The translations under genes and the position numbers were made by a program. The notes beneath the pieces were generated by a model, which ran no database searches, was not told the origin of the DNA, and was given only the letters and a program-made list of their open reading frames with translations. This document shows, piece after piece, positions 1 to 64,000 of a stretch of DNA of 64,000 nucleotides. This DNA comes from Mesostigma viride (Eukaryota; Streptophyta; Mesostigmatophyceae; Mesostigmatales; Mesostigmataceae): assembly GCA_009746045.1 (NCBI GenBank), contig RPFO01001952.1, positions 62,001 to 126,000 of the forward strand, in the 5' to 3' direction. Position 1 is the stretch's first letter. Each line of letters starts with the position of its first letter.

Positions 1-1
1 C

Positions 2-8007: not shown

Positions 8008-8028
8008 AGCTGTGGATCAACTATTATC

Positions 8029-8032: not shown

Positions 8033-8049
8033 ATAAGATGTAATAAACT

Positions 8050-9477: not shown

Positions 9478-9795
9478 AGTGTCGTCTTGTTGACGACGGC
9501 AACGAGCTTGCCATTTCGCTCTTGTTGAGCTGATAACGAATGTAAACGTGATATAAATTTTAATGAATTCGTTTATGCAGTATAAAACGCGTCAATGCAT
9601 GATGAAAACAATTTTCATTTCGTCTCGAATTGCAGTTCTAACTGCAGGTTAAAAATCCAGAGTAAACCTCTTATGCATCGACACAGGTCGTGTGGGATTC
9701 TTGCATAGGTCGTCTGAGTTTCCAGATTAATAAACCCTAACACTCTGCACACCCCGCCGCGCGGCCCTCGCCGGCTCCCTCACCCTGCGAGGACA
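9478..9795. other. AT-rich spacer, nothing recognised
   Basis: The stretch after the last virus-type gene is AT-rich (ATGATATAAATTTTAATGAATTC and similar) with no convincing frame. It may hold the 3' end of the upstream transcript. No terminal inverted repeat of the viral block was found here. Confidence 0.4.
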
Positions 9796-41745: not shown

Positions 41746-42150
41746 AAGTAAGCAAGCAAGAATACAAGACTGATCAAAAGACCACCCTCAGCTCCAACCA
41801 CACCCTGAACCGGCCACGGACTTTCACACATCACCAACCACAGTCCCCGCATCCGATCAAGTCCTCAACCCAGGACCATCCCATTGGGTCCCCACCAAGA
41901 TAGAGTACTGATCCAGCCGTACTGGGTCATCCTGAGATGTGCTCAATCCAGGGGTCATTCCCAGCCCACATGTAGTAATGCGTGGATCCCAACGCCTGCC
42001 AGCCTGAAAATTTTCATGCCACATGGTCCATCAGTTGCCAAGATCTATTTCAAACCATCCAGCAGTCCTTGCAGATCCCCAAGAGAGCCCCCCATGACCA
42101 TCCGCAGGAGGCGATACTGGTCTCGCGCCCCAGCGAACAGCTTGGTCAGC
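41746..42150. other. Unassigned flank of the gypsy element
   Basis: No gene recognised. The gypsy LTR begins at 42151, right after GGTCAGC. Because the right LTR runs off the window, the target duplication cannot be checked. Confidence 0.4.
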
Positions 42151-42362
42151 TGTCACGGACGCGCGCTATGTCATCCGGGCGCCCACTATGCACAAGACCG
42201 GTGACGTGCGCAAGGAATTTGTCTTCTACGCATTTTCGACAAAGGCTAGTGACCGGGGGGGGACACTAGCACTTGCAGCATAAGAGCGGACGAAAGTGTA
42301 CGTGCACGCGCGCCGGGCCAGGCACAGCTGGGCGCGCAGCACTGACTTGAGCGGACGGCAGC
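42151..42362 (+). repeat. Left LTR of gypsy element (matched part)
   Basis: Start of the 5' LTR, defined by identity with 63790-64000 (one G more in the run near 42255). The LTR continues to the right, but its end cannot be fixed because the partner is cut by the window. It includes AATAAA at 43143 if the LTR extends that far. Gag begins near 43583, so the LTR plus leader is at most about 1.43 kb. Confidence 0.85.
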
Positions 42363-43582
42363 ACAAGTGTGCAGCGTCGAGAGGATCATACGCGTGTTAG
42401 TGGACAGCTGGAGCTGAAGCTGTACTGCTGGACTTCAACAGCGCCGAGGCTATTGACAGGCCAGGTGTCTTTGTGGTGTAGAATAGCGGGTCAACGTTAT
42501 GAGGACTGGACAGAAAATGGAAAAGGACAATTTGCGGTGCGGAGCCAGATCGCTGGAATGAATGCGAAATCGCTGGCAGCCCTAAAAAGGGATTTCTTCT
42601 AGAAAGGAACGATTAGACGCAATGTTTGCTGGGCCACTCACACGCAAGGTGTGAGCGTGCAGATTGTCTGAAGGATATTATGCTTCGACCTTGCTGGACG
42701 TGACTCAATGTCGGACATTCCCAGGGACAGAAATGCCGGAGCCTCTAGGAGATGAGATCGGCAACAGGGTAGCAATTTAGATTTGTCGGGATGCCTTCCT
42801 GCTTTTGTTGGCATGTGTGGTAGAAAGCCAGGACGGCAACTGGAATGCGGTTTCTATTCGCATGGTTCAGGCAGCAAGATAGTTTTGGCATTCCTGGCTG
42901 GACTGACAAGTGTGGCGTGTGTCATGCGTGTGGCATGACGAATGGTTTGGTTCATAGTCGAAGAGGACTCTCACGCAGCGTGTAGTCTCTTCGAGTCTCT
43001 CGTTAGTGGCCTTCGTGTTTCTCCCTTTCCTTGGGAGCAAGGCCGGTAGCATGTCATGGAGCGCTGCCTAACTGCGGGCTCGTGAGCATGGAGTGCATCG
43101 ATATTGAGACTATCAACGTGTTGTAATTGTATTAACTTTCTCAATAAATCCGCATGTGCGGCTTCATCATCAGACTGTGCAAAGTGTGTGTTGTGAAAGC
43201 ATTATTCTATAGCAGGGGAGGCAATAAGGTGGTCATCAGGCACGAGGGACAGTTCCTTGTCCTCGGCTGAGAGCCCTCCTTTCTTTACTCGAAGAGACTA
43301 CCCGGTAGTCTGCTTCCTTCTGTTCGAAGCCAAGACGTTGGCTTTAGTGTTTAGCAACCATCAGCAGTACAGGGAACGGCCTGGCTGACAGTTTGTAAAG
43401 GAAGTGTCTTGAGACAGATTTTAAGAAAATAGAACTAGCCAGAATTTGCTGGCTCTTGTCTTTTTCTGGCAGGCTAGTCGAGTCGTTATCCTTGACACCT
43501 GTTATAAAGCCTTTGGTTGTTGCTTCTTCTCAGCGAAACCTAGGCTTGTTGGTTCTTGTTTTGCCCATCGGTCAGCTGGTGC

Positions 43583-45391
43583 ATGCCACTGACGCGAGCG
43601 CAGACTCGAGCCATGGCAGATGCAAATAGAGCAGATGCCGACACGTCCGCTCCGGGGTCGAATGGCGGGATTCCTCCCGCCGTACCCGCAGTGGGTGAGA
43701 GTCGCGACCAAGAAGCGCCGCTGAGTATGGTGGCGCTGTTCGCGCAGATGCAAGCGCAGATGCAGCAACAGTCGCAACAGTTGCAGCAGCAATTGGCGCT
43801 GCAGATGCGGGAAGTGACCGACAGATTGGTGGCCGTAGAGGGTCGTCATCTGCAGTCCACACCATGGGACGGGCAGGCATCGATGCCGGGCCCCAGTGGT
43901 GTTGCCGCGGAGCCGAGGGAGCGGGACCAGCCGCCAACCTCAGGTAATGCGGCGGGAAGGGCTTCGATGGAACCGGGGGTTTTGGCTGGGTCGCTAACCC
44001 AACACGACTTGCTTGGTGAGGCGGATGGTCAGCCACGGGGCGAGTATACGCTGGCGCCCAGGCGCCTGCCTTTCGATCAAGCGCGAGACGGATTGCACGA
44101 GGAGAACGGGGCAGGGCTGGCGCGCGCGATGGACCCACACAGGGGTGCACCAGGACGCATGCTGCCAGGCGGGGCCTCAATTCCGTTTGGGCGAGGCGGT
44201 GGGGCGCTGACCGGCGGGTCGACTGCACGGTGGTCAAGTGTGCCAATCGGGCGCATTCCGCCCATGGAGGACATAACCACGCCGCTGGCTTTCCGAGTAC
44301 GGGAGGCAGCACGACCAAGCACGCTGGCGCAGGGACGCGCAGCTCAGCGACCGCCGGAGGATGCCGATGGGGTGCAGTACCCGCAAAGGGTGCGCCTCAT
44401 ACCGGAAGGCGCGAAGATGCCCACCCTACCACGGGTGGACATGCGCGAGAAGTTCTCCACAACCGGCAATCTGGCCACGCTGGCGCAGGCCTACAACGCG
44501 TACAAGTCATGGATTGATCTGCAATACATGACTACGCAAGGCGCTGTAATGCATGAGTTTGTGATGAACAACATGCATTTTTTCTTTCACGGCCTTACGC
44601 TGAGGCGAGTGGCTAGGCTGGTGGAGCAGTGGAGAGAGGTCTCGCTGTACACGCGTCACACGGACGTGTGGTTCGGCTTCGACGGGCGTGGCCAGCCCGA
44701 CTATGACAACATCATGTATGGTGTCGACCCTGCCGAGGAACTGTGGGGCCTCCTTCGCCAGGAATACCCGGTGGAGACCATCAAGGCAGAGCGTGAGTGG
44801 CGCAGTTTCAAGATAGCCGAGGGTGAAACCCCGGAGCAATCTTACGAGCGCCTCATGGAGTTCGCCGGCGAAGTGGAGGACTGGTCCGAAAAGCTGGCGT
44901 GTCAGAAATGGCTGCAAGCGCTAGGCTCCAAGGAGATGGAGCTGCCCACGCCGCCCAACGGCCAGCCGTGGCGATTGCGGTCACTGTGCATTGAGGTCAG
45001 GGCCATGATGCGACGACACGCGCAAGGCCGGATCTCGGTAAGCACGGTGGTGGCCGAGCTGCAGGCCAAGGTCGACGCGCTGACCAAGGCCAAGTCGGGT
45101 GAGTCGTCTGCCACAAGACAAGCGCGCCCGCAAGGCGGCCACGGTGCTAGCAGGAACCAAGGGGGGTCTCGCAACGCCTCATCGCATGATGCAACCCAGG
45201 GTAACGCCGCTGGCGGCAACAAAGACGCTGCCGCCCCGACGCGAGCTGGGGGGGCACGTCCTCACAGACGGGTACTAGGACGGATGCGCGCAAATCGGGC
45301 TGCTTCCTTTGCGACAAGGATGGGCACCTTAGTCGCGAGTGTCCAAGCCGCTGCACGAAGCCGCATGGGGCAGACACGAAGTGGCACCTGA
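43583..45391 (+). CDS. gag: Gypsy Gag
   Basis: The frame is open from 43556. The first ATG after the leader that gives a sensible start is 43583 (MPLTRAQTRAMADAN), with another at 43613. About 600 residues: a Gln-rich coiled coil (about residues 55-95, 'MQAQMQQQSQQLQQQLALQM'), a Pro/Gly/Arg-rich linker, then a helical capsid-like region from about residue 290 with 'AEREWRSFKIAEGETPEQSY' and 'EKLACQKWLQAL', which matches the Retrotrans_gag pattern. The zinc knuckle expected at the C-terminus is not in this frame: it is in the -1 frame from 45301. The frames cross at a run of seven G (45248-45254). Gag forms the particle that packages element RNA. Confidence 0.8.
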   Translation: MPLTRAQTRAMADANRADADTSAPGSNGGIPPAVPAVGESRDQEAPLSMVALFAQMQAQMQQQSQQLQQQLALQMREVTDRLVAVEGRHLQSTPWDGQASMPGPSGVAAEPRERDQPPTSGNAAGRASMEPGVLAGSLTQHDLLGEADGQPRGEYTLAPRRLPFDQARDGLHEENGAGLARAMDPHRGAPGRMLPGGASIPFGRGGGALTGGSTARWSSVPIGRIPPMEDITTPLAFRVREAARPSTLAQGRAAQRPPEDADGVQYPQRVRLIPEGAKMPTLPRVDMREKFSTTGNLATLAQAYNAYKSWIDLQYMTTQGAVMHEFVMNNMHFFFHGLTLRRVARLVEQWREVSLYTRHTDVWFGFDGRGQPDYDNIMYGVDPAEELWGLLRQEYPVETIKAEREWRSFKIAEGETPEQSYERLMEFAGEVEDWSEKLACQKWLQALGSKEMELPTPPNGQPWRLRSLCIEVRAMMRRHAQGRISVSTVVAELQAKVDALTKAKSGESSATRQARPQGGHGASRNQGGSRNASSHDATQGNAAGGNKDAAAPTRAGGARPHRRVLGRMRANRAASFATRMGTLVASVQAAARSRMGQTRSGT

Positions 45392-47838
45392 TGAACAAGT
45401 GTCCAGCCGCGGGCATCAAGACGGTCCACTTCGCCGAGATGGCGGGCAAGACCGACTCGATGGAAGCCCAGGTGGCTGCCATCAAGCATGGTGAGGAGGC
45501 GACGGCGCCCCCCAACCAATTCGAGACGGTGTACCGGGAGGACCCATTCTGGGCGCCCATGCCGGGTGACGTCGAGATCAACGCTGCGGAGGCTACCAAA
45601 GGCAAGCAGGCACGCAGCCCGCTTTCTTTTCAGCAGGCACCCATGTTGCCTGCCGGGCAGTTGCCCGCGTCCTTTTCCATGCCGCTGGCTGGGGTGCAAT
45701 CTGCTTTTGAGCATGCGAACCCTGCTGGGCTGGAGCAGCGTAGGCGATTGGCGCCTGTGTACCCAATGCCGTTCATTGTGGACGTACCCATGTTTTCAGC
45801 ACGGCAGGTGGTCGACACCTTCGGGCAGAAGGGGGTTGAGTGGCTGGGGTCGGTTGTGTCCGAGATCCAGTTGTTCGCAGATGGGCATGATGTGCGCACC
45901 TTGCGCAATTCTGAGTCCGTCACCTACGGGCGCCAGCCGGTAGAAGCCGCAGTGCCCGTGGTGCAAGCGGGAGTGGTCAGCACAAGTAGCCAGCAGCGCA
46001 CTAGTGCAGTCCCCCAGGTTCCCACGGTGGTTCCATACCCCAATGGTGAGCCGTCCATGGCGTTCCAAGCAGTTGGAGCCTGTGGAGATGTATGGAGCGA
46101 CATGGTGACATGTCCGTTGGTTGGCGCAGTCAAGCTTGATAGCGGTGCTCAGCCGCTAGTCATCAGCACGGACTTGGCCACCATGCTGAACCTGACCTAC
46201 GAGAACGGTGGCTTAGTGGAAAGCCCCGTGTCTGTGTCAGGTTGGCAGGGTCCGGCTAGTAAGCCGTACGCTATGACGGCGGTTAAAGTCAACGTGATTT
46301 TCAATCCGTTGCGCGCCTCTAGCATGACCACCGTGTCCGCGTATGCGCTGGTGGTCAACAAGTGTGGATATTCCGCACTACTCGGGGTGGATGTCCTTGC
46401 TCGCGCCATGGTTCAGGTGGACTATAGGGCGGAGGAGGCATCTTACATCCCTGATTGGGATGGGGCTGGCCTGAAGCGGGCCAGCGTGCCGGTCTCATGC
46501 TTCAGTTCTTCAGCCGGGGCTGCACGCCTCAACCCTTCCGCGGCTGCGGGCGTGGTGGAGGTCAGCATGGTGGAGGTACGGGCGGCGGGCTCATCGGCGT
46601 GGGACAAGCATCGGACGGTGCTGCCCCAGCCAACGGCGAGCATTGCCAAGATGCGCACACAGTGGTCGCTGGATGCTGTGACGTCCACGCGGCAGCTGGC
46701 TATGCGCAAGCGGGTAACTGAAGCCGTCATCACCATTCCTCAGATGGCCAGCCATGGCCTCACTTTGCTGCAACCGGGTGTCTCGGAGGCCCAAGGTAAT
46801 TTTTCTGCTGCAATCTTACCGCAGGCCCCTGATTTTGCCAAGGGTGCGGTAGTGTTGGAACTGTTTGCGGGGATCGGAGGGGGCATTGCAGGCTTTTTGG
46901 CCGCAGGCGGCGTGTGCCGTAAACTCATCGCGGTAGAGCCATCGCACAAGGCGCGTCAGGTGTACTTCAGTCACTGTGGCGTGTTGTCGCGAGAGTATCC
47001 CGCGCAGTTTCCGCCATCAGCATGGCGTGACCCGTTTGGGGAATGTCCTCAAGATATCCGAGCCATCGGTGAGGTGCAGGTGCAGCAGTTGTTGCGCAGG
47101 CATCATGCCATCGACTTGGTAATTGCGGGTTGGGAGTGCCAGGGCCTGAGCCAGGCAGGGCAAGGGCGGGGGCTAGCCGATCCGCGTAGCGCGCTGTTCT
47201 GGGAACTGTTGCGTGTGGTGGGACTGTTGCAGTCGCGTCAGCCCCATCCGCCTGCGTATCTGTTTGAGAACGTTGTGGCGGGTGACAGCCCACATCAGGC
47301 GGTGCGGGAGGACTGGGCTACAATCGTGGCACTCCTGGGGGAGCCCATCGTGTGTGACAACGCAGGGCTGGGTGGGCTCACGCATCGTTTGCGTGCCTAT
47401 TGGACCAACGTGGCGTGTGCGACCGATGTGCAGGCGGTCTTGGGGGCCGTAGCAAGGCAGCATCCGAGTGTGTCTGCGGAGGTAGCATTGCCTTCCCACC
47501 TAGTCACGCAGAAGGTGGATAGCGAGGATCGCCCACCGTATGCACGCGTCAACCGGGTCGGGAGCCCCATGTGTGCACTGCCGACCCTGGTCAGTTACCA
47601 AGGGTCGACAGCATACCGTGATCGGGGTAAGGGTCTCGTTTGGGACACTACCACCGGTCTGTTGGTGCAGCCACCCGCAGAATTTCGTGAGGCCAGCATG
47701 GGTTTTCATGTCGGGGCCTCGGCGCTGCCGGGCGTGCTCGAGAGTGAGCGCTGGTCTTTGATAGGCCAGGCTATGTCGGTGTTGCAGGTCGGGTATGTGC
47801 TGCTTGCATCGGTTGCCGTGCGCCAGTCTGGGGGGGCG
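45244..47838 (+). CDS. Gypsy Pol, N-terminal part: zinc knuckle, retropepsin, C5-cytosine methyltransferase
   Basis: The frame runs on into the copia LTR to 48276, but the element's own part ends at 47838. A CCHC knuckle (C-FL-C-DKDG-H-LSRE-C) is at 45301-45342. A retropepsin-like domain has LDSGA (catalytic Asp codon 46138-46140) and ends with 'YSALLGVDVL'. From about 46840 to 47815 lies a full C5-MTase: motif I VVLELFAGIGGGIAGF, motif IV GWECQGLSQAG (catalytic Cys codon 47137-47139; the usual Pro before Cys is Glu). Motif VI is YLFENVV, motif VIII is THRLRAYWTNV, then a target-recognition-like part with 'PPAEFREASMGF', and a motif X-like 'IGQAMSV'. It would methylate cytosine in DNA. Retrotransposon-borne C5-MTases have been reported in Klebsormidium and Symbiodinium. 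No internal stop is seen. Confidence 0.88.
45248..45254 (+). other. G7 run at the gag/pol frame change
   Basis: Seven G inside GAGCTGGGGGGGCAC. Gag is read GCT GGG GGG GCA, and the zinc knuckle and protease are in the -1 frame. This may be a programmed -1 slip on the G run, or a one-base indel that split an originally continuous Gag. Confidence 0.45.
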
Positions 47839-48440
47839 TGTTATATTGTGGGCTCGCAGTCACATAAAGTATTGGAATTTGGTTATGCTCGGAATTGGCT
47901 AAGTCCGGAGGTCAGCCGGCAGCGCCGCGCTGAGGTTTATTTGCTGGGCCGGCGGTCAGTGGGAATTTATGTGTACGGTCAGGCAACGGGTCGTAGGTTC
48001 TGGCTGTGGGCTATTTTGGGTTCTGGCCATTACCGTTCGTTCCGTGGGCAACCTTGGTTCCGTACCGTTTGTCCAGGCATGCAGTGGGGAGGATCTCGGT
48101 TGCGGTGCGTTATGTTGTGGAGTGTCGTTTGGGAATTATGTTGGTGTATTTCGGTTGGTTTGTACTTGGGTACGTTCTCAGGCCCACGCCGTTGCTCAGC
48201 GTTGGGTGAAGCCACAGAGCTACTCGCAGTGATGACCTACAGCGGAGCATTGAGTCAAAGCTGTTTGGCGGCGTGAAAGGCCGACACGCAGGAGAAAGCT
48301 TTGAATCACGTTGCAGCAAATGCTGTCAATGGCCGACGTTGTCGACATGTCCGGGGCTGGGCGCTGAGCGAGTAATCTATTTTGTTACGTCTTTATTATT
48401 ATTCGGAAATACAATACACCTAAAGAATTTTATTTTAACA
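47839..48440 (+). repeat. Copia left LTR, 602 bp
   Basis: TGTTATATTG...TTTTAACA, identical to 54157-54758 except at 48080. Small frames within it are present in both LTRs and are not genes. A primer-binding site should follow at 48441 (TGTACTAGGTTGGGGCC), but I cannot match it to a tRNA. Confidence 0.97.
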
Positions 48441-48477
48441 TGTACTAGGTTGGGGCCGTAATTTTACAGCATAAAAC

Positions 48478-49707
48478 ATGGCAGCGTCAGCTGGGAGAAA
48501 ACGGAAAGCAATTCATAGTGATCCGTCGACATGGGCCGCTGACCTACGAGCTGAAAAGGATCTGTTAGAACTATTTCGAAAGCGTGTGGGAACTCTTGCT
48601 AGCGACGCACCCACTCTCGTGGTGCGTGACTATATAGAGAGAATAGAGGCTTTTCTGAAGGACCATGGTGAGAAGATCAGCAGCGTTTATTCGCTTTTCC
48701 GAGATGCCGGTTTGCTGAGCTGCGACAATTTCATTCTCGCATTTACTCTTCGAGCATGCAAGGATGAGAAGGTAAAACGGCGTCACATCCCAGGTAAGCT
48801 GCGTGAGGCTTTGTTGGAGTCGAAGGAGGGCACGACCTCTAGGCTATGCAGCATTTACACCTGGGTGCCACAACGGCCTTACTCACTCGATTTACTCAGC
48901 CTTCGCAATTTGCGGAATGAGTCTGTGCTCAATGGACTAGAGGTGTCTGAGACAGCGGTGATAGACCGTTACGTGAGGATGGCCAAGGACCTGAATTTCC
49001 AGACTGTGATGGGAGCCCTGCGTGCAGGCCAAGCCAAGGATGACCTTACCAAGGCAATAGAGATCATTACCGGCCTGGTAGAAGGGGAGGAGAGGGACAT
49101 GATTGCACAGCTGAGAGCCCAGGGCAAGCTGACCGAGTCTGGGTTGATGGCCCCTGCCCCTCCCCCAGCCGCTCCCAATTCTGTGCCCCTCCCTGCACCC
49201 TCTGTGCCAAGCACTGTTACCCCTGCCAAGCCACAGGATGCAACGGGCAAGGTTGCCGGTGTCAACAACAGCAAGCCTGCTGGAGTAGGCAACGGTGGCA
49301 AGCAGCGTGGTGGAGGCCGTGCCCGTGGTGGCGGGCGCGGTGGCAGACGTGGGCTGTGGCAGGGCAGGCCATTGGTGCAGCAGCAGAGACAGCAGCAGCA
49401 TTATGCCCCAGCACAGCAGGCAGGACAGCCGCATTATGCTTCACAGCCGCCGCAGCCGCAGCAGCAGTTTGCACAGCAGCAGCAACAGCGGCAGCCACAG
49501 AGGCAGGAGTCTGGTGCATGCTTCATATGCGGGAGAAAGGGTCACCTGGCACGCACATGCTACAATAGGCACGCTGACAGCATGCCAGCTCGCAGCAATA
49601 GCAATGCACAGGGCCCTGCCGTGTGTAACCGCTGCAAGCAGCCAGGACACTTTGCACGTGACACGCACCTGTGCCCGGCGGCCCAGAGTGGGGGCCGTAG
49701 GCAGTGA
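48478..49707 (+). CDS. gag: Copia Gag with RGG box and two zinc knuckles
   Basis: 409 residues, starting 37 bases after the LTR in a good context (AACATGG). Residues 1-225 are helical and capsid-like. About 225-265 is Pro/Ala-rich, then an Arg/Gly box (GGGRARGGGRGGRRG) and a Gln-rich stretch of about 55 residues. Two zinc knuckles follow near the end: C-FI-C-GRKG-H-LART-C, and a second variant one (CNRCKQPGHFARDTHLC). The frame ends in TGA CTA GGG and continues open in the same frame into integrase. TGA followed by CTAG is a known leaky-stop context, so Gag-Pol may be made by readthrough. The RGG box and knuckles should bind RNA. Confidence 0.85.
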   Translation: MAASAGRKRKAIHSDPSTWAADLRAEKDLLELFRKRVGTLASDAPTLVVRDYIERIEAFLKDHGEKISSVYSLFRDAGLLSCDNFILAFTLRACKDEKVKRRHIPGKLREALLESKEGTTSRLCSIYTWVPQRPYSLDLLSLRNLRNESVLNGLEVSETAVIDRYVRMAKDLNFQTVMGALRAGQAKDDLTKAIEIITGLVEGEERDMIAQLRAQGKLTESGLMAPAPPPAAPNSVPLPAPSVPSTVTPAKPQDATGKVAGVNNSKPAGVGNGGKQRGGGRARGGGRGGRRGLWQGRPLVQQQRQQQHYAPAQQAGQPHYASQPPQPQQQFAQQQQQRQPQRQESGACFICGRKGHLARTCYNRHADSMPARSNSNAQGPAVCNRCKQPGHFARDTHLCPAAQSGGRRQ

Positions 49708-49711
49708 CTAG
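49705..49711 (+). promoter_or_regulatory. UGA CUAG leaky stop between copia gag and pol
   Basis: Gag codon CAG, then TGA, then CTA GGG in the same frame. UGA-CUAG is an efficient readthrough context in several eukaryotic and viral genes. The frame after it is open for 421 codons and encodes the integrase. Confidence 0.5.
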
Positions 49712-50735
49712 GGTCCGGTGGTGAGGGTGAGGCAGCTGGTGATGTGCCAAATATGCGAGCTAGTGCGGGGCAGCACGGCTCGACCCCCCAGGCTAGCTCA
49801 CCCCGCCTGGGTGCTCGCGTGGCAGCGCTAGATGAGAGCGCTGGTGAGGAGGGGGACCATGCAGAGCAGGGGGCAGTTGCAGTAGGGGATGAAGCACTGT
49901 CTCAGGGAACGAGGGAGAAGGGGGTTGGAGGAGGTACTGCAGGTGTACACACTGCAGTTCTGGACGGGCCACCGGTACGAAGGTCCTCCCCACACCCGGG
50001 ACCTCAGGCACAACAGTCTCAATGTCCATTGGAGGCAGGTGGTACACTCAGTGTACTTAACATGGCAATGAGGTTACACACACGGTTGGGTCATGGCCAC
50101 GCTGCAGAGCATTGGGCAGCATCACTGGGGTTTTCGGAGCTGGTGGCGACGTGCAGAGAGGTCTGGCAGAGGTGTAAGCATTGTCAGCGCAATGTGCCTA
50201 AGCCGCACAAGTTTCATGCACGTAGACCGGTGCTAGAGAGGGGCCCGGTGCAAGTGGATGTGCTCAAGTACGATGACAGGGAGTATGTGCTAGCGGTGGG
50301 GCGGTTCTCCAGGTTCAAGGCACTAGAGGTGTTGCCACGCAAGCACAAGGAAGAGCTGCTCACCAGCCTGCGCTTGGTAAAGGCCAAGTTTGCCGTGGTG
50401 TCAACTTTAGAGTGTGACCAGCAGTTCGAGTGTTGCATGAAGGAGCCGGGGTTTGAGCAGATTGTGGTGGCGGGTGCGGCAGATCACGAACATCAAGGGT
50501 TAGTGGAGAGACATATCAGGACCTCCAAGTTTGTGATGAGTGCTATGGCCAGGATGCGCTCGCTGTCGTACCGCGATCAGGCTCTGTTGTGCAGGCAGAT
50601 AGAGGAGCACATGAATCACAGGGTGATGGTCAGGGTACATGTGGATGGTGAGGAGGTAGCCGTCACGCCCCATGGGTTGGAGATGGGCCTGCTCCCGCTG
50701 GAGGCGGTAGAAGCATACGTGATTGGCTGTGTGAC
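49708..50735 (+). CDS. Copia integrase (same frame as Gag, after UGA)
   Basis: After the gag stop the frame stays open to 50973, with first ATG at 49744. A linker of about 100 residues leads to an HHCC-type zinc domain (LHTRLGHGHAAEHW ... CKHCQRN). The catalytic core follows: Asp in 'VQVDVLKYDD', Asp in 'LECDQQFE' and Glu in 'HQGLVERHIRT', spaced by about 30 residues rather than the usual 35. It inserts element cDNA into host DNA. Coding similarity passes to the -1 frame between about 50700 and 50735 ('RDWLCDRYLRLVDMD'). The rest of this frame to 50973 looks random, so there is a frameshift here, probably a mutation, since no slippery heptamer is seen. Confidence 0.75.
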
Positions 50736-53669
50736 CGGTACCTCAGGCTGGTGGACATGGACCTGCGCAGGGGTGATGTGTACGTGCCTAGCGAGGGAGC
50801 AAGGGTGTGGGCGTACCGGGAGGGAAGTGCTTTGGAACAGGGTTTGTGGGAGGGCCCTGTTGTGGTCAAGTCAGTGGACGGTGACCACATGTTGGCGAAG
50901 GTTGGGCGTGAGGACCGCCGCTTCGACCGACTACTGGCGTGGAAACACTTGCGGCCGTACTACGAGGGGCTAGGTGCGCCAGCAGACCTGCCCCATGAGG
51001 AAGGTGCGATGGGCTCCAGCGCGCAGGCTGGAGGTGAGGCGGGGGACCCAGGGACGGCCGCAAGGGGGGTGAGAGAGGAGACGGGGCCTGATCAGCCTGC
51101 GCCCTCTCTTCCGTCGGATGGTGGGTTGCCACTGTCCAATGGCGGTCCAGCCAGTGTGGGACCAGGCGGGCTGGGGGTTGCCCCTTCCGCTGATGGTCAG
51201 GAGGTGCAGCGCGCGACAATGTTTGCCCGTGTCATTGAGCGGCTGCAGGAAGCCCGGCGGGCAATCGCGGAACGCGAGCAGCCGGGGGGCACGTTACCAC
51301 GGGCCGGCGGGGCGGGCAGGCCGTCGGCTGTAGGTGGGGCGCCTCAGGCCGGCGAGGGAGCCGTAGGAGGGCCACCACAGTCCAGCGAGGCCAATGCAGG
51401 GCCAGCCGCAGGTGGAGAGGCACAGGCCGGCGATGCTGGCGCATCGACCGCAGGTGCGGGGCTACAAGCCGATGGCGTTGATGGGTCGGCTAGCACCCGG
51501 CGCGAGTCACTGAGTGGCGGTGATGGCTCCGAGGGCGGCGGCGACGTCGCAATGGAGGCTGGTAATGAGGTAGCCTCGGTGTCTAAGCTAGTGGATTTTC
51601 AGCAGGACGGGCTGGCTGGGTGTCGGTTGGAGGTGGATACTAATGCGGTGGTGTGCTTGCTAGGTGAAGGGGTAGCTAGGCACTTCCCGCTACAACCGTC
51701 CAAGTGGAACTTTGTGGAGGACTTTTCTGGGGTGGTGCGCATGCCGGTAGTGGGCGAGGTGATGCTGACCATTCTTGGGCGTGACACTCCTTTCTGCGTG
51801 CTTGAGGGCTATGATGGGCCGGCGATTCTGGGGCTGCCATTTCTTAATCACCCTGATGTTGTGATCCAGAGCTCTAGTTTGACCAGGGAGGGCCATGGGT
51901 CGATAGAGTTGGAATCGTACAAGGCAGTGCAACCTCTCAGTCTCGTCTCAAGCACCGTGGCTAGGCTAGCAGCACTGACAGGGACAGAGGGTGTGGCGTG
52001 GGGAAAGGATCTCCCGCCAGCGGTAGACCTGGTCATGCCTGCGTTGTTGCATCCATCCAGCATCGGTATTACCAAGCGGGACATCGCTGCACATTCTCCG
52101 ATTGGCTATGAGAGGCTGGTACTAGAGATGTCGACGCAGAGTGGTTTCTCCAGCTGGTGGTGCGCGTTTCACAGGGCGCTGGAGGAGTGGCAGGGGTATG
52201 GTGTGTATGAACCAATGGACAGTGTGCCCAAGGGGGCCAAGGTACTTCCTCTCAAGATGGTGTTGTCTCACAAGGTAAAGGCTGGGGTGGAGGTATGCTA
52301 TGTGAGGCCGGTGTCGCAGGAGTTTTCGGGAACCAGTGAGCTGGCCAAGGAGGAGCTGTACACCCCAGGTCTGGCGTGGGATAGCTTCAGGATTATCACC
52401 ATGCTGTATCTCGGTTTCCTGGATGAGGGCAGAGACTATGGGTGTGCGTCTATTGATGTCAAGCGTGCTTTCCCTAACTCTAGCGAGGAGGTGGCGCGTG
52501 AGGTGTGGGAAGGCACGTCACCCCTGGTGGTCCAGACACCCTCGTTTTGGATGGAGGAAGTGAGGGCAGAATTCATGGGCTTGTTGAAGGCCATAGAGGG
52601 ACTGCAGAGTGCCTCGATTGTGTGGCGTATCACTTTGATGCGTGCTCTGTTTGAGCTGATGACATTCGAGGTATCCCCGTACGACCCTTCGTTGTTTGTG
52701 GCACAGACTCCCTCAGGTCCCTTGTTTGTACAATTGCATGGGGATGACCTGCGAGTGGTAGCACCCCGTGCTGTTCTGCATCAGTTCTATGCAGATCTCG
52801 CTAAGCGTTTCCCTGTGGGCGAGCTGCAGGTGGTGGACCAGCAGACTCCGCGTGTCTTCTGCGGTGTAGTGCAGACCCTGCGAGTGACGTCTGGTAGGCA
52901 TCAGATGCACCTGGGTATTCCTGACAAGTATCGGGAGGAGCTGATGGGCTCGGTGGATGAGCTGTGTGCTAAGGGCCTGTGGAGCCGCCTGCGTGGCAAG
53001 CTAGGCTGGATGGCGGCAGTGTGTGCGCCCGATCTGGTGGTGCTGAGTAGGACGGTAGATGACGTGTTGTCGCAAGTCCATCCGTCGGTTGTGAGGCAGT
53101 ATGTGGCCGAGAGCCAAGGTGTGGTGCTTTCTGGCCTGTCGGTCTCTCAGCCCGCTGTTCTTCACTGCTTTGCAGATACGTCGGGTGAGGGCAGGGAACT
53201 GACCAAGCTGAGGGCACGGATGGGTGGTCTGTTTGTGCTCTGTAACCCAGGGGGTCGGGGATCGCTGTGTGGGTGGTATTCGAGACTGTGCAGGCGTGTG
53301 GCAGTTGGCTCTGACACTAACGAGTGCCGTGGTGTGTGTGAGTGTATCAAGGCTTCGCTGTACCTCGAGCAGTTCTTGCGCTGGATGGGCAAGTGGATGG
53401 GTGTCCGTTTGGTGCTGACGACAACTGTGCATACGGATAGCCAGCCGCTTGTGAGCTTTATCCTCAACAGCTTGTCCAGGACGCGTGACCTCGATTTCCT
53501 GCTGTTGAAGGAGCTGTCTTACGCGGTGAGCGTTCTCCATCTGCCGGGGAGGCTGAACCCGGCGGACGCGGTGACCAAGCTGTTTGCAGCAGCGCGAGAG
53601 CAGTATCGCATCTTGCGGATGGTGATGGCAGGTTCTCTTGGGGATCTGCGGGAGTTGTTGGTTGTTTGA
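50710..53669 (+). CDS. Copia Pol: retropepsin-like domain, reverse transcriptase, RNase H
   Basis: The first ATG in frame is 50751, but the frame is open upstream and continues the integrase C-terminus. Residues about 1-75 (from the ATG) are an integrase C-terminal, SH3-like segment (GDVYVPSEGARVWAYREG). A Gly/Ala-rich linker follows. About 290-370 looks like a retropepsin (LEVDTNAVVCLL ... GPAILGLPFL) with Asn in place of Gly after the catalytic Asp-Thr. Reverse transcriptase spans about 450-740: CASIDVKRAFPNS carries the first Asp and VQLHGDDLRVV the catalytic pair (His-Gly in place of the usual Tyr-Val). RNase H follows (FADTSGEGREL, HTDSQPLVSFI, LPGRLNPADAVTK). It ends at TGA 53669, 487 bases before the right LTR. 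Confidence 0.8.
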
Positions 53670-54138
53670 GCTTGGACCCTGTGGAATTTTAGCCTGTGGC
53701 CAATTTGAGAACGTTGTTTGGGCCGGGGGTGATCCTTATGCCTGCCCTATACTGATGGTGACCCGGCACGGTTGGATAATTTGCTCCATAATTGATTTGG
53801 TGGGGGAGTGTCCTTGGTTGAGGACTGGTGCGGTTGGAACGGGTTTGTAATGTGTATGGGTCGTGTGGGTGTGCCGGGGTCAAGGGTGGTCGTTTAGATC
53901 AGTCTTGTATTCTCGCTTGCTTACATGACTTACTTCAGACACTGGCAGTATGTGCAAGGCGTGAATGGGCGCCAAGTTAGAGGGGTTGGAGCTCCCCTAG
54001 TACATAGCGTCTTGTGCGTACTGTCTCCGAGAGTGTTTGTGAGTAACCCTTGGGTGGTGGTGGATATTGTGAGGATTGTTGGCATGTATGTCGACTGTGG
54101 GTTGTGGTTAAGTGGCCGAGTGGTGGATGTGACTGCTC
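53670..54138. other. Copia 3' untranslated region
   Basis: About 470 bases between the pol stop and the purine tract. No convincing frame. It may hold packaging or export signals, none recognised. Confidence 0.5.
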
Positions 54139-54156
54139 GAAAGAAAAAGGGGCTGG
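54139..54156 (+). other. Copia polypurine tract
   Basis: GAAAGAAAAAGGGGCTGG directly before the right LTR, the usual primer site for plus-strand DNA synthesis. Confidence 0.75.
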
Positions 54157-54758
54157 TGTTATATTGTGGGCTCGCAGTCACATAAAGTATTGGAATTTGG
54201 TTATGCTCGGAATTGGCTAAGTCCGGAGGTCAGCCGGCAGCGCCGCGCTGAGGTTTATTTGCTGGGCCGGCGGTCAGTGGGAATTTATGTGTACGGTCAG
54301 GCAACGGGTCGTAGGTTCTGGCTGTGGGCTATTTTGGGTTCTGGCCATTACCGTTCGTTCCGTGGGCAACCTTGGTTCCGTACCGTTTGTCCAGGCAAGC
54401 AGTGGGGAGGATCTCGGTTGCGGTGCGTTATGTTGTGGAGTGTCGTTTGGGAATTATGTTGGTGTATTTCGGTTGGTTTGTACTTGGGTACGTTCTCAGG
54501 CCCACGCCGTTGCTCAGCGTTGGGTGAAGCCACAGAGCTACTCGCAGTGATGACCTACAGCGGAGCATTGAGTCAAAGCTGTTTGGCGGCGTGAAAGGCC
54601 GACACGCAGGAGAAAGCTTTGAATCACGTTGCAGCAAATGCTGTCAATGGCCGACGTTGTCGACATGTCCGGGGCTGGGCGCTGAGCGAGTAATCTATTT
54701 TGTTACGTCTTTATTATTATTCGGAAATACAATACACCTAAAGAATTTTATTTTAACA
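54157..54758 (+). repeat. Copia right LTR, 602 bp
   Basis: Matches the left LTR at 601 of 602 positions and is followed by the target copy GGGCG at 54759-54763. The gypsy pol frame resumes at TCC, 54764. Confidence 0.97.
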
Positions 54759-54763
54759 GGGCG

Positions 54764-55965
54764 TCCCCAGCCAATCCGCCTCAGCAGGTTGAGGCGCGCG
54801 CAGCCAAACTGAAGCGCCCTGCAGCGACGGGGACTTCATCAGCATGGGGGTGGCGTCTGCGACAGGTGTGGACTATCATTCTCATGACCGCCCTGCTGAC
54901 CAGCACCGTGCTGGCCGGCGAGCCCACGCTGCATCGGGTAATACACCGTGCGGAACGCGAGGCTCCGGCGGTGGGTGTCACACCAGGCGTGGCAGCCTTT
55001 TCCTTGTTCCACGACGATGCGGCTAGGGCGCCGCATCTTGAGGCACATGCGGTAGCTGTGGGTGATCCCGCGGATACGCACCCCTGGGCTATTGGCGAAC
55101 ACCTTTCTGATGCGCAGCGCTCAGCCATGCTAAAGTGGCTAGGCACTGCAAGGGGGGCCTTCGCTTTCACAAATGATGAACTGGGGTGTTTCAATGGTGG
55201 GACCATGCGTGTTCCATTGGACACTGACACCCCTTTGTTCCGACGCCAGCATCGCCTGAGTCAGGCCGAGTTGGAATTTGTCGCCGAGCAATGCAAGGAG
55301 TTAGAGGATGCCGGTATCATCAGGCAATCTTCCTCCAGCTATGCCGCTGCCGTTGTCGTTGCGCCCAAGAAGGACGCTATTACCGGGGCATGGACGGGTA
55401 TGCGCATGGCCACCGATCTGCGGTTGCTGAATGCACACACACCCGTGGACCGTTACCCCATGCCACGTGTGGATGATGTCCTGGATAAGATATCTCCTCA
55501 TGTGAAGTTTGTGTCCTCGCTGGACCTGCGTAGCGGCTTTCATCAGATCGCAGTTGCGCCGGAGGATCAGCGGAAGCTTGCATTCTGGGGGGCGGCAATT
55601 TGTATGAGTGGGTGCGCATGCCCTTTGGGCACCGCAACGCTAGTGCTGTTTTCCAACGAGCTATGGACAAAGTGCTTGCAGGTCTTCCTTTCGCCGCTTG
55701 TTACATTGATGATGTAATCGTCTTTAGCGCGACATTTGAGGAGCACCTGGCGCACTTGGAGCAGGTTCGCTTGGCTCTCGAGGAGCATAATATGCGGCTG
55801 CACCCTGAGAAGTGCAAGTTCGCCCAGCGGACCCTCTCATTCCTTGGTCATCAGATTGTGCCGGGTGGCCGGACGCCTGATGCCGCCAAGGTCGAATCCA
55901 TTGTGCAGGCCGCCGTACCCACGGATGTCTCAGGGGTGCGGGCGTATTTGGGTTTGGCTGGCTAT
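54764..55965 (+). CDS. Gypsy Pol, middle part: reverse transcriptase
   Basis: This is the direct continuation of the methyltransferase frame once the copia element is removed (codon GCG 47836-47838 followed by TCC 54764). A linker includes a hydrophobic stretch (VWTIILMTALLTSTVLAG). Reverse transcriptase follows: 'DLRLLNAHTPVDRYPMPRVD', 'FVSSLDLRSGFHQIAVAPED' with the first Asp, 'LYEWVRMPFGHRNASAVF', and the catalytic YIDD (55702-55713), then 'EKCKFAQRTLSFLGHQIV'. At a run of six G (55587-55592) the frame changes; one more G would restore it. The frame then stops inside the TIR element at 55969-55971, after 'AYLGLAGY'. Confidence 0.85.
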
Positions 55966-56011
55966 TCATAGCAATACCCCACCACACTCATCGAAAATGG
56001 CTGTGTTTGAG
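55966..56011 (+). repeat. Left terminal inverted repeat, 46 bp
   Basis: Perfect reverse complement of 61188-61233. Confidence 0.97.
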
Positions 56012-56779
56012 CCCCCCCGGAAAATACCGGTTCCATCAACCTATGTTAACTTTGTTCGTCCGATTTCGGCCGTTTTTTCAATCGACGCACCTGGCACTGC
56101 GAGATCCACCCTACTTCAGATCTGGACTTAAATGCCTCGGAAGAAAACGGGGGGCGAAACGGTAAAAAACGGTCAACCGACGTATAGAAACGGAAACGCG
56201 ACCGGGGGTTACTGACTGACAGACCGGGGGTTACAGGGGCGGACACGCGACGGTCACTGCCGGTTACGAGCTGGGCATTACAGTGACCGAGACTCGGAGG
56301 TCGTCATCTCGATTTTTCCCGCGACCCCAGAGACGAAAACGACGAAAACACCCATGGCGGTCGAGTATCAGCTAGCGTTTTGAAACTTGCGTCACTGCAG
56401 CCGCTCGAGGTGTCAAAACGAAGCTTACATCACGGTTAATCCATGGAATAATTTTGGAATGATATGAGCTGTGATTGCGACGAGGGAATTGAACGGGACA
56501 AATTGTTTTTTTGCAGCGCACCATTTTTTTTCGCGAAAACCAGATTTCTCGGTGGTACGTGTCTAAAAGTCCTGGTTACGAGAGGAGATTAAAATCCCGG
56601 CTCGATAGCTCAGATTATGCGTTACAATATCCCCGAAAACGTTAGTGTTTTCGTTTTCTGAGTTTCGCTTTTTTTTCTCCGGCATTCGCCTGAATAAATA
56701 TGGGGCGCGAAATCCGTCTGTTTCTTGCTTCGTACAATACATGTCTTTGTCGTCAGATAATTAGCTCTTTAGGCTATGC

Positions 56780-56920
56780 CCGACCTTCCTGTACTGCCCA
56801 GCCTGCGGCAATAAGCCAGCAGGACATATGGCGTGCCCAAGATTCCGCGCAAAGGTCGCTAATGGTCTTCCGGATGTGCAGTAAGTGCGGTAAAAGCTGC
56901 GAAAATTGCTTATAATGCCT
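56780..56920 (+). pseudogene. Cys-rich zinc-binding-like fragment
   Basis: One frame reads FLYCPACGNKPAGHMACPRF (C-x2-C-x6-H-x2-C). After a stop, another frame reads CSKCGKSCENCL. Together they look like a broken Cys-rich zinc-binding segment, such as those at the N-terminus of some DNA-transposon proteins. Too short and damaged to assign. Confidence 0.25.
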
Positions 56921-57419
56921 GTAGAAAGCTCTTTGCGACAGTGTTTTCCAAGCGAGTTTATTGTTCCTTTGACGCTAGATACAAAAGGCAAAGGGGTTCA
57001 TCATTTTTTATTAGCCGTCAATGCGGTTTCGAGATGTGATGGGTTGGGCAGACGACCTCGCCACGACCCGCTGGGCTCACGCTTCGCATCTCCCGGCAGC
57101 CATGAAGAAGCGCAGATTAAGCGAGGTGAGCGAGCTAGAGGTCCCAGAATCGTTGCTAAGGGGCAAGGCAGCTTCTCAAAGGGTAGAGAGCTGGATTAAT
57201 AAGACTTTCTCAAGGGCATTATGCAGTGGTTATTGCCACCTTGTCCAGATATTTTCCCTTGTCTTTCTGATTTATGTACTGCTTCAAAGAGGGCAAGGAG
57301 AGCGTTTGCGACGTTGTTTCTCATTCATTACTATGAAGAAAATGCCTTTGCAATTGCTTACCACGAGATGGAAGCTGCCTCATGCAAATTAGCCAGGCAA
57401 TGCAAGTGATGCAAGGTGA

Positions 57420-58660
57420 GGCCATGCATGGCTGATATTGCCTTCATGCGTGAGTTGAGCAGGTGGCTGGCTGGGCGTGTGGCTGGCTAGGTGAGCGGGG
57501 CGTTTATGGGGGGTTGCGATGGTGCGGGCATGCGAGGGCAAAAGGGCGGGCTCATGCCTGGCTGGTTTGGGTGTTGGGTAGTTAGGTGGTTCGGTAATTG
57601 GGTTGTCGAGTGTTTAGGTGGTTAGGTGGTTGTGTTGCTGGGTGACTGGTTGGTTGGTTGGTTGCCCAGGAAGTCTTGTGTGGGAGGCTTAGGCTATAGA
57701 TGCTTCAAGGGATGCCTAGGCGTAGGTGGGTTCAATGGGAGGTGGCTGGCTGAAAGGTGGATGCCTTGGTAAATGGCTGGCCGAGTAGCTGGGAGCACAG
57801 GCAGCTGGAGAGGGTGGCTGGCTGGCTGGCTGGTCATGGTGGGTGGATGAGTACAAGGGTGGTCGGTCATAGGTAGATGTCCAGGTGGCTGGGTGATTGA
57901 TAGGCTTTGGGGACTGCCAAGTGGGTGGGTTGTTGGATTTGTGAGTGAAACAATGCACAGTATTGAGGGTGGTGGGTTGGTGGTTGGTTGGTTAGGGATG
58001 CGTGTGGGTGGGTGGGTTGGTGGGTAGGCCATTGGTGGTTGGTGGATGGTGGATGTGTAGATGACTGTGTGGGTGGGTGGGCGAAGGGACGGGTAGATGG
58101 ACAGGTGCGCGCACAGATATGGATGCGTGGATGGGTTTATGGTTGGGACCGTCTCACCTATCGCAGGTGAAGGGCTGTGCACGTTGGGGGTGAGGTAGGT
58201 GGCTGGCTGGCTGAGAAAATGCATGTGTGGGTGGGTCAGTGGGTATAAGGGTGTGGGGGGAGTGAGTGGTTGAGTGGGTACTTGTAGGTGCGTGGGTGGG
58301 TCAAGGGTGGGCGGCCGCATGGGTGCATATGGGGCCAGCTGGCTGGGTGTTTAGGTGGCTGGGTGATTGGGTAGTTGGCGCATCGGATGGGTGAATGCCT
58401 CCTCATTACCTGATTGGTACGTGGGTTGCGCAGGTGCCTTGGTGGGTGGGTGGATGTCCAAGTGGGTTGGTAGGTGGTTGGGTGCCTAGGTGCACGCGTG
58501 GTTATAAAAGGTGGGTTAGCACGGGCGCAGCTGGCTGGGTGGGTGGGTCACTGGGTGGGTGGACGGGTGGGTGTTTAGGTGTACGGGCACGTGAGTGTGT
58601 GAGTAGTTGTGTGGGTGGGTGGCCAGGTGGCTGCATGGGTGGGCGACTGCATGGGTGGCT
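57420..58660 (+). repeat. GT-rich low-complexity tract
   Basis: About 1.2 kb dominated by TGGTTGG, GTGGGTGG and GGCTGGCTGG units without a fixed period. Pro/Thr/His-rich minus-strand frames here are composition artefacts. Confidence 0.8.
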
Positions 58661-58729
58661 CGGTGCGCACAAAGTGCAAGTGATGGAGACATGGGATATT
58701 CCAATGCCGTATCATGTGAGCATACCAAA

Positions 58730-58893
58730 GAGACAACCAGCGCAGGCCAGAAATCGGGAGAATCCGGACCATGGTAGCTCGAGCCTGCCGTTATCTTGTC
58801 CGCGTGTTTGAGTCGTTCAGGATGATGAATATGAATGGTGATGGAAATGTGTAGCCTTGTGCATTGCAATTATGGCTGCCTTACGTGTAGAGA
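58730..58893 (-). repeat. Dispersed repeat family R1, inverted copy
   Basis: Reverse complement of 11036-11158 and of part of 10785-10872: CGCAGGCCAGAAATCGGGAG through GATAATGGCAG-type sequence to TGTAGCCTTGTGCATTG. Confidence 0.75.
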
Positions 58894-58908
58894 CTAGATG
58901 CTGGTTGT

Positions 58909-59303
58909 CTCCTTGATATGATTTCTGGCCTGCGCTGGTTGTCTCCTTGATAAGAATAATATGTCTGATTGTCTCCTTGATATAAGGCCTGCATGCCATC
59001 TAAGCTCAATTACTGATCTGAATTGATATACATTATTCCAAGTAGTAGTTAGCGTGAGTCGCGAGTTGCACTCCTGTGTCAAAGATGCTAACTAATCCTG
59101 CTACCACCCATTTGTCTCCTTGATATGATTATTGGCCTGCGCTGGTTGTCTCCTTGATAATAATAATATATCTGGTTGTCTCCTTGATATAAGGCCTGCA
59201 TGCAAGCTAAGCTCAATTACTGATCTGAATTGATATACATTATTCCAAGTAGTAGTTAGTGTGAGTCGCGAGTTACACTCCTGTGTCAAAGATGCTAACT
59301 AAT
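58909..59303. repeat. 190-bp tandem duplication with TGTCTCCTTGATA units
   Basis: 58909-59096 and about 59117-59303 are near-identical (GGCCTGCGCTGGTTGTCTCC ... CAAAGATGCTAACTAAT). The 13-mer TGTCTCCTTGATA occurs about three times per copy and also near 10856, at the end of an R1 repeat. Probably LINE 3' sequence duplicated after insertion. Confidence 0.85.
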
Positions 59304-61187
59304 TTTCCTCCTTGATAATACTGCTACCACCCATAACATCATTACATCGGAATAGCCAATGTCCATGAATAAAAAATAAATGCATACCACCTAGCTAGCT
59401 AACTAAATAATACATGAAGAGAGCTAGGGTAGAGAGCTTAGACTAGAGTTGGCTTGATGTCGTAGATAGATTAGACCGGTAGGATTGTGTGTCCCCACCC
59501 ATCGATCCATCAGGGTCAGAGTTCCACTATACGTAATACACGCTTATACGCACAGGGTCCGTATAAAGTATAATACGGTATAATACGGTAGAGTACACGA
59601 TCGTAAGTGACCACTAGATTTGATGGTTTTCAGGGCTGTTTCAACCATTTCTCACTCACTGACATGTTTGTGACACTAATAAGCATAGAATACACAGTTG
59701 GCTCACTGGCTCACTGCCCTGCATACAAGAAACATGATTTTACTGTCGTTCAACGAAGCAATCATACACGCATGCCGCATGGAGTCTAGTATCGCTGGAC
59801 TCACGATAAAACATCGCACACATGCACGTTGAAGACACTTACCATGCAAAGAAATACTCATGCATGCAATATATAGGCAAATAATGTATGAGCCAGCTGT
59901 GCATCGTGCAAGTTGCTGCCCTTTGCAGTGAAAGCATACCGACTCTGCCTGACCCCTGTATGCCGGTTAGCCATACCATATTGCTATACCTACTTATTGA
60001 TAGAAAAAAAGGGCCAAGAAACTGGGGAACAAATCGAGCTTCCACAATGCTGCACAACCATGCCAATATCTGACTTCCAGAAGGTTTGCACAGCTTTGCT
60101 ACCATCAAGTAAACAAAGAAAGCTGCAGCAATGATGTCCGCAATTCTCACTGCACAGGTCCGGTATGTGCTGCAGTCACGCTGCATTGATAAATCGGCAT
60201 CAACTTGGCTCATAAGAGCTATCCTGAAGACTGCGTGAGCAGCCAAGGTAATCCACAAACTATCGTGGCGAATGGTTACACGAGCGGCCCTCTTCATGTA
60301 TATAACAACCAAACCTTGACGCACCACTGGAACCGCGGCCGTCGTGACGCTTTGCAGCTGTAAAATATTCGAAGCCTCGGATTCGTGAGTACACGATAAA
60401 GAATAGACACCTTCGCACGGGGCACCAGAAGCCATACAGTCTGCAAGCCTACACTAATACTAACAACGACCTGAGAGCCCTACAGCTGGCCTCAATCCGT
60501 ACCACTAAAGGTGCAAATGAAAGCCTGCCCCATTTTCTGACGCTTCTTAAACTGCGCATCATCGTCATGACCAACCAAGGCTGCGATTCTTGATGAAATT
60601 TTAGAGTGCCTGCCGCTTCAAATTTCGATATTCCCATAAGTTTGTTCACCTTCCAGTTAACTCTCACCTTCCTGTTAACAAGTGTCCATATCTGACCATG
60701 CCCGAGGCAATGGCCATCAAATTTTGCACGCCTCCCAGCGCCTCCTAAGTATTTGCACCTTAGGGATACAGTAAACCCACAGTACGCCCTGTCGGCTTTG
60801 AACAAGCCATGAGGCAAGTATTTTACTCCTTTTAGGTACCCACCGAAAGTCGTATGTGAGCACGCACGTTGCACGTTCGGCGAAATTTCCCCTTGGATTA
60901 ATATTAACGAGTGCCATAGCCTCTACCGTCCCTGCCTGCCCTGCTACGGAGGCAGGTGGTCACTATAACTCGCGGTTCCATCGTACGGTTACGGATACGG
61001 TCCATGACAACTCCTCGTACGGTGCGTCAAATCCCTCGTACGGGCGACAAAATTCCTTCATACGGTCCATGACAACATCCTACAGTTTCGGTTCTTTCAG
61101 TTTCCGTTACGCAATTTTAGGTACCGCGCTGTGGTTCGACGGTACTTGGGGACCGAAAAGGACTGAACCGGTCGCGAAAAATATACA
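59304..61187. other. Right internal part of the TIR element, no gene seen
   Basis: Mixed sequence with only short frames on either strand (up to about 200 codons near 59839-60435, minus, without recognisable motifs). Near the right end a TACGGTCCATGACAAC string occurs twice (about 60995 and 61057). Confidence 0.4.
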
Positions 61188-61233
61188 CTCAAACACAGCC
61201 ATTTTCGATGAGTGTGGTGGGGTATTGCTATGA
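61188..61233 (-). repeat. Right terminal inverted repeat, 46 bp
   Basis: Perfect reverse complement of 55966-56011. Confidence 0.97.
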
Positions 61234-63789: not shown

Positions 63790-64000
63790 TGTCACGGACG
63801 CGCGCTATGTCATCCGGGCGCCCACTATGCACAAGACCGGTGACGTGCGCAAGGAATTTGTCTTCTACGCATTTTCGACAAAGGCTAGTGACCGGGGGGG
63901 ACACTAGCACTTGCAGCATAAGAGCGGACGAAAGTGTACGTGCACGCGCGCCGGGCCAGGCACAGCTGGGCGCGCAGCACTGACTTGAGCGGACGGCAGC
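63790..64000 (+). repeat. Right LTR of gypsy element, cut by window end
   Basis: TGTCACGGACGCGCG... matching 42151-42362 with one G fewer in a run. The rest of the LTR and the target duplication lie outside. Confidence 0.9.

Follow-up and report, generated by a model that had tools for sequence, protein, structure and literature searches.

A Ty3/gypsy retrotransposon family of Mesostigma viride carries a complete C5-cytosine DNA methyltransferase domain in Pol

Results

A gypsy element with a methyltransferase module in its Pol frame

We analysed a stretch of 64,000 nucleotides from the genome of Mesostigma viride (contig RPFO01001952.1, positions 62,001 to 126,000), referred to here as the window. 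It contains a Ty3/gypsy retrotransposon whose Pol carries a complete C5-cytosine DNA methyltransferase (MTase) domain. What a transposon should gain from an enzyme of the type that silences transposons has been a puzzle since 2018. The features of the window copy are as follows, some of them mapped from L030, another copy in the same genome.

42151..43247, + strand: gypsy 5' long terminal repeat (LTR), length about 1.1 kb, starting TGTCACGG, from alignment with the 3' LTR
43556..45391, + strand: gag-like open reading frame (ORF) of 611 aa
45298..45348, + strand: CCHC zinc knuckle, encoded in frame with pol but 5' of its ATG (45391), located by mapping from L030 (pol aa 32-48)
46132..46404, + strand: retropepsin-like region (D-S-G; L-L-G-V-D-V-L), mapped from L030 (pol aa 310-400) and placed by position
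46783..47823, + strand: C5-cytosine DNA MTase module, predicted DNMT3-type fold, motifs I to X in order
47137..47139, + strand: motif IV catalytic Cys within G-W-E-C-Q-G, with Glu in place of the usual Pro
47266-47274, + strand: E-N-V of the MTase, read in the sequence
47383-47394, + strand: H-R-L-R of the MTase, read in the sequence
47764-47769, + strand: motif X G-Q of the MTase, read in the sequence
47839..54758, + strand: nested Ty1/copia element interrupting the gypsy pol, LTR starts at 47839 and 54158
55364..55858, + strand: gypsy reverse transcriptase (RT), mapped from L030, frame broken in the window copy
55967..61226, no strand assigned: second insert of about 5.26 kb, separating RT from RNase H
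61385..61699, + strand: RNase H domain (PF17917, E=6e-39)
62267..62776, + strand: integrase, H2C2 zinc domain and catalytic core (PF17921, E=8e-17; PF00665, E=2.3e-11)
63407..63541, + strand: PHD finger at the end of pol (PF00628, E=3.6e-9)
63790..64000, + strand: 3' LTR, truncated by the window end; the repeat extends to C778:126886

Direct LTRs of about 1.1 kb are present, as a Ty3/gypsy LTR element requires, and the 5' LTR (window 42147-43247) and the 3' LTR in L035 share 99.7% identity over a 1102-column alignment. Other copies (L029, L030, L031 and L033) have RT first, then RNase H and then integrase, which assigns the element to Ty3/gypsy; the RVT_1 match in L030 has E=1.7e-27. The zinc knuckle matched PF00098 in L030 (E=0.0018, under the cut-off), and a Pfam scan of the gag-like ORF at E 0.01 gave no match; gag and pol lie in different reading frames. 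The nested copia, which begins 15 nt past the MTase module, is flanked by a 5-bp target duplication (GGGCG, 47834-47838 and 54759-54763) and matches RVT_2 (E=5.7e-12). Inspection of the flanks of the window gypsy copy by eye revealed no clean target site duplication and no standard tRNA primer site.

A preliminary description of this DNA had placed protease, MTase and RT in one open frame. In the window the frame does stay open through the whole MTase, but the copia cuts off the RT, and the whole frame is seen only in other copies. The retropepsin that it named is a putative one, recognised by position and by the D-S-G triad in subfamily A, that of L030, but the matches to PF13650 and PF13975 are weak (E=0.1 and 0.13), and in subfamily B the protease-like region (L033 1639-4881) reads D-G-G in place of D-S/T-G.

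The methyltransferase domain is complete

The frame 45391-48276 matched PF00145, the DNA_methylase model, with E=1.9e-11 and 44.4 bits in a Pfam search, above the cut-off of 22 bits; the match is real and far beyond chance. It spans only positions 3-111 of the 324 of the model, and the rest of the domain is covered by an alignment with 23 viral C5-MTases and by a predicted structure. Motif I reads F-A-G-I-G-G-G, motifs I, IV, VI, VIII and X occur in order, and the catalytic Cys, ENV and RxR are all there. Note that a Pro before the motif IV Cys is usual, but the Pfam cut-off can be passed without it, and we did not treat it as defining. Thus, the Ty3/gypsy element carries a complete C5-MTase domain, as the preliminary description had proposed.

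The borders of the module were inferred from conservation troughs. The extent first given, 46840..47815, had the location right, but the conserved module is slightly wider (46783-47823). Between subfamilies A and B, identity per 40 residues falls from 0.40-0.80 in the MTase to 0.17-0.23 immediately before it and to 0.38-0.42 after it, and these flanking troughs would be the expected places of processing sites.

The domain belongs to a young, multi-copy family

The pol of L030 is a single open frame of 2074 aa, with the zinc knuckle (aa 32-48), the weak protease-like region (about 310-400), PF00145 (550-690), RT (1079-1243), RNase H (1331-1435), the integrase zinc domain (1625-1681) and core (1702-1794) and the PHD finger (2005-2049). 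L029 and L031 show the same order from knuckle to PHD finger by Pfam, the protease-like region being unlisted at the E limit used, and so the expectation that other copies would share the domain order was borne out.

A search of the 440-Mb genome gave at least 118 matches to the MTase domain, the window copy included, all covering residues 1-341 and all free of stops; with 118 of 517 candidates scored, the figure is a minimum and favours the best matches. The open frames around these matches are of 2074 aa (n=39), 2073 (n=1), 1042 (n=21) and 1195 (n=10), with others scattered. Eight of the 21 frames of the 1042 type were read (L012, L014, L018, L020, L022, L024, L025 and L027) and share an end about 0.5 kb past the MTase; either a genuine sublineage or a base-calling slip that recurs may explain this. 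The base in which the 1042-type copies differ from the others lies at the frame change itself and gives no independent mark.

In the internal parts of the element, four 10-kb stretches are 99.3-99.99% identical to the window or to one another, and the LTR pieces of L029 share 98.0-98.4% identity. Among 19 loci of 4 kb, 16 differ from L010 by 12-15 substitutions, and the other three, L009 (the window itself), L011 and L023, diverge more, copia junction included. Such near-identical copies point to a recent burst of the family, which is young and multi-copy and has the MTase as a standing Pol domain between the protease-like region and RT.

Two diverged subfamilies conserve the domain under constraint

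Subfamily B (L033, L034 and L036; L033 at 65% identity) and subfamily C (L037; 73%) both have the MTase immediately 5' of RT, in B also by Pfam. In a genome search with PF00145, 27 matches fall in the score and range of B (43.4-45.1 bits, model 3-114), and the three that were read are all B; C comprises 22 matches of 96-100% identity, three of them with stops and several partial.

The catalytic Cys, E-N-V, R-x-R, the motif I glycines and motif X are conserved across the 65%-identical subfamilies. For the MTase, the proportion of synonymous differences (pS) between subfamilies is 0.75-0.78, which is saturated, and that of nonsynonymous differences (pN) is 0.19-0.27; pN is 0.11-0.12 in RT and 0.37 in the protease-like region (A-B). 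Among the ten best-scoring C copies the summed pN/pS is 0.18.

The frame changes between the protease-like region and the MTase in B (L033) and before the zinc knuckle in A. A run of G is present in the ORF overlaps of both, gag/pol in A (L030 3072-3255) and the two-ORF overlap of B (L033 4695-4881), at different sites of the polyprotein; these runs may reflect programmed frameshifting or a systematic base-calling error. All three subfamilies retain a hydrophobic, membrane-like stretch between MTase and RT (ILMTALLTS-like; L030 pol about aa 912-929).

The preliminary description had also considered that other copies might lack the segment, which would make it a private insertion. The search was run from the domain outwards, and elements of the same RT clade free of the domain were not sought; it recovered the domain from no fewer than 118 near-identical copies, and from subfamilies B and C as well. 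The window copy is split by two nested inserts, as might be expected of an insertion or assembly chimera confined to a single copy, but the 118 matches lie on many contigs, 39 of them in full frames, and with the diverged subfamilies they make that explanation almost certainly wrong. A private insertion is therefore ruled out.

Enzyme class and relatives

A profile search of the PDB placed DNMT3A on top (E=2.5e-7), followed by a DRM chain, DNMT3C, HhaI and DNMT3B, and a search with the single sequence placed the DRM chain 4onj first (E=4.1e-5). A first structure model, made from three alignment rows, was poor (predicted local distance difference test, pLDDT, 48), and Foldseek matched it to DRM, HhaI and DNMT3A but also to unrelated dehydrogenases. 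After the addition of 23 viral rows, the model had a pLDDT of 62.4 and a predicted template modelling score (pTM) of 0.72; residues 10-347 superposed on DNMT3A, and DNMT3A/B were the top structural matches. Residues 240-315 have a pLDDT below 50, and the target-recognition part is poorly modelled. Despite the 4onj match, a DRM-type permuted enzyme was ruled out because the motif order I to X and the structure are unrearranged. In this order and fold the domain resembles the catalytic domain of DNMT3A/DNMT3B, from which it differs in its identity of about 24%, in the Glu for Pro in motif IV and in being embedded in Pol.

Phage enzymes are close as well. The viral family phrog_116 matched with E=3.9e-18, better than any Pfam or NCBIfam match (the libraries differ in size), and phage proteins reach 38.7% identity over one third of the MTase domain. 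Scans of viral and genome contigs with domain and alignment queries, which can reach near relatives only, confirmed no close viral or bacterial source. By profile and predicted fold, the gypsy MTase is of the DNMT3 type, with phage enzymes close to it.

We also built an unrooted tree (15 rows, 155 columns), in which pieces of DNMT3A were the only eukaryotic DNMT3 included. Three groups were obtained: the gypsy domains; the phages with DNMT3A (96); and the host MTases, MET1 among them (100). The phylogeny called for at the outset thus sets the gypsy domains apart from the host MTases as a group of their own, but does not place the group nearest to them: the position of DNMT3A among the phages is weakly supported (54-74), and an unrooted tree gives no nearest pair among three groups. 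Host MET1 and the other amplified host C5-MTases, lying in a separate group, were ruled out as close relatives. The host nuclear DNMT1 scored 745 bits to one set of DNMT1 chains, which we take to be plant MET1, versus about 480 for the rest.

The genome holds a second, unrelated group of C5-MTases of about 300-360 aa (L002-L008, L042-L047, L049-L053, L056 and L057), with PCQ in motif IV where read and many equal-scoring copies, often on short contigs. We read it as another amplified element with its own methyltransferase.

Discussion

Relation to known elements

A Dnmt3 in the Pol ORF of a gypsy element has been described in K. nitens (KnitGypsy-Dnmt3; de Mendoza et al. 2018, PMC5890265). Like the Mesostigma element, it is an LTR gypsy of a streptophyte alga, with an intronless Dnmt3-related domain in the Pol ORF, several copies and purifying selection. 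Its repeats are described as DIRS-like in a figure legend, whereas the Mesostigma element has direct LTRs of about 1.1 kb; therefore, we consider the latter as of the same kind but not a member of that named family. The words 'PHD' and 'protease' do not occur in the main text of PMC5890265. Compared by description only, the two elements may be one lineage or two acquisitions. If the origin is shared, the arrangement would be ancient, Mesostigma viride being an early-diverging streptophyte.

The preliminary description was correct in citing Klebsormidium as a precedent, but those of Symbiodinium are LINE and DIRS elements with a Dnmt, not gypsy (PMC5890265). SymbioDIRS-Dnmt3 and SymbioLINE-Dnmt have in common with the Mesostigma element a retrotransposon-borne C5-MTase, many copies and purifying selection, and differ in element type and host; SymbioDIRS-Dnmt3 was active on CG in yeast (PMC5890265).

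A published gypsy element already has a Dnmt3 domain within its Pol ORF, so the novelty of our finding is limited. It is lowered further by the Dam- and Dcm-bearing gypsy and DIRS elements reported in several groups, including green algae and charophytes, for which antiviral roles were suggested (PMC6338049). MTase-bearing elements of streptophytes and dinoflagellates are cited as Copia and DIRS in PMC12344493, no DNMT3 was found in the MMETSP green algae (PMC9998398), and algal DNA transposons with ParB-methyltransferase proteins are of another type (PMC12477816). In M. viride, 5-methylcytosine (5mC) is widespread and mostly in CG, and LTR elements are the largest repeat class (PMC6947507); its sections 2.3 and 2.4.5 do not mention MTase-bearing elements, and 'DNMT3' does not occur in its main text. 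A search of the open-access literature by title and abstract start found no report of such an element in Mesostigma, which is a weak negative. A phenomenon already known but still unexplained thus gains a strong new case in the Mesostigma element, whose one close precedent dates from 2018. With a young family, many near-identical copies and diverged subfamilies in one genome, together with the published bisulfite methylome of M. viride, direct tests are feasible.

A possible self-marking methyltransferase

The explanation that best covers the whole, and to which we give about an even chance, is that this gypsy family makes, with its Pol, a de novo methyltransferase that marks the element itself. 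The MTase would be produced with Pol and packaged in the particle, either cleaved free or left tethered, and would place de novo cytosine methylation, probably at CG, on the fresh element DNA and at the insertion site. In a widely CG-methylated host, new copies would resemble resident DNA and their expression would be tempered.

The PHD finger after the integrase would direct new insertions towards chromatin whose H3 tails are unmodified. Among solved structures, its closest relatives are those of BAZ2B, Lid, BAZ2A, CHD4, WSTF and ATXR5, several of which read the unmodified H3 tail, and therefore the finger may guide integration. This would be analogous to the chromodomains of chromoviruses, gypsy elements that carry a chromodomain after the integrase: both have a domain of histone-reading type 3' of the integrase, but the Mesostigma element has a PHD finger instead of a chromodomain, plus the MTase. 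Note that the finger was seen in subfamily A only, the B and C stretches ending before its place. In a bolder version, which we consider improbable, a single polyprotein joining a DNMT3-type enzyme, its active site remodelled to Glu-Cys, with a PHD finger of H3K4me0 type would be the parasite's self-contained kit for de novo silencing, marking its own new copies in chosen chromatin, a selfish early self-methylation perhaps as old as the streptophyte algae.

Several observations weigh against an active, self-marking enzyme. In every copy read, the residue before the motif IV Cys is Glu and not Pro, the motif being G-W-E-C-Q-G in all three subfamilies. The observed/expected (o/e) ratio of CpG carries no imprint of heavy self-methylation, although the copies are young, being 0.856 in A (L030) and 0.785 and 0.783 in B, with a window background of 0.62-1.12 in 6-kb pieces; the value of A even exceeds that of the nested copia (0.72), and no CpG depletion that could mark self-methylation was seen. 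The copia, without an MTase domain, has also been recently mobile here (LTR pieces 99% identical). Moreover, the MTase evolves faster than RT (pN 0.19-0.27 vs 0.11-0.12). The ten C copies compared are the best-scoring of 22, a choice that favours intact ones; in single pairs, where changes are few, pN/pS varies from 0 to 1.33, and one of the ten, L148, is without a few residues just past the catalytic Cys. Finally, KnitGypsy-Dnmt3 yielded no methylation in yeast, a result that its authors deem inconclusive (PMC5890265).

The motif IV residue bears on the possibility that the domain is retained but non-catalytic, as DNMT3L, serving in DNA or partner binding, in particle structure or as a decoy for host methylation factors. 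G-W-E-C-Q is found in A, B and C and is kept to the Gln in 10/10 C copies, whereas 71 of 76 viral relatives carry Pro at the position preceding the Cys (simple pattern scan; three without match and two with other letters, possible mis-hits). However, some of the conserved motif residues should have been lost had the enzyme died, and yet the Cys, E-N-V, R-x-R, the glycines of motif I and motif X all persist between subfamilies, so that we regard a non-catalytic role as unlikely. An active enzyme could also be directed at host DNA or RNA and not at the DNA of the element, with a shifted host methylome or modified packaged RNA as the outcome. Such effects were proposed for DNMT-bearing retrotransposons (PMC5890265), and 5mC is widespread in the host (PMC6947507), but the MET1-type DNMT1 of the host could explain the CG methylation, and the similarity is of DNMT3 type, not DNMT2 type, which leaves a host target doubtful in our view. 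As to origin, a virus or phage may have supplied the domain instead of a cellular Dnmt3 gene, and what it does now would be a leftover of that source. The lead of phrog_116 over the Pfam and NCBIfam matches, the identity to phage proteins and the low-support position of DNMT3A inside the phage group speak for this, but the tree holds pieces of a single eukaryotic DNMT3, structure puts DNMT3A/B first and the viral contig scans gave no close relative; we rate such a source as somewhat unlikely. Self-marking by a Pol-made enzyme is the reading that we prefer.

Other features of the window and genome

Positions 1-9500 of the window contain a run of intronless ORFs (301, 720, 171, 317, 440, 493, 170 and 209 aa). 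A Pfam scan of five of these eight gave one bacterial Ig-like domain (PF19078, E=1.7e-18) and four without match, and by eye the run looks like a fragment of an endogenous DNA virus. A long minisatellite with a unit spacing of about 22-23 bp extends from about 31870 to beyond 32950. Elsewhere in the genome, the plastid rbcL is of green type, with 1gk8 as its best PDB chain, and a plastid tmRNA gene, whose tag is that of Mesostigma viride, was noted at L152 2861-3216, near rbcL and a tRNA-Met gene.
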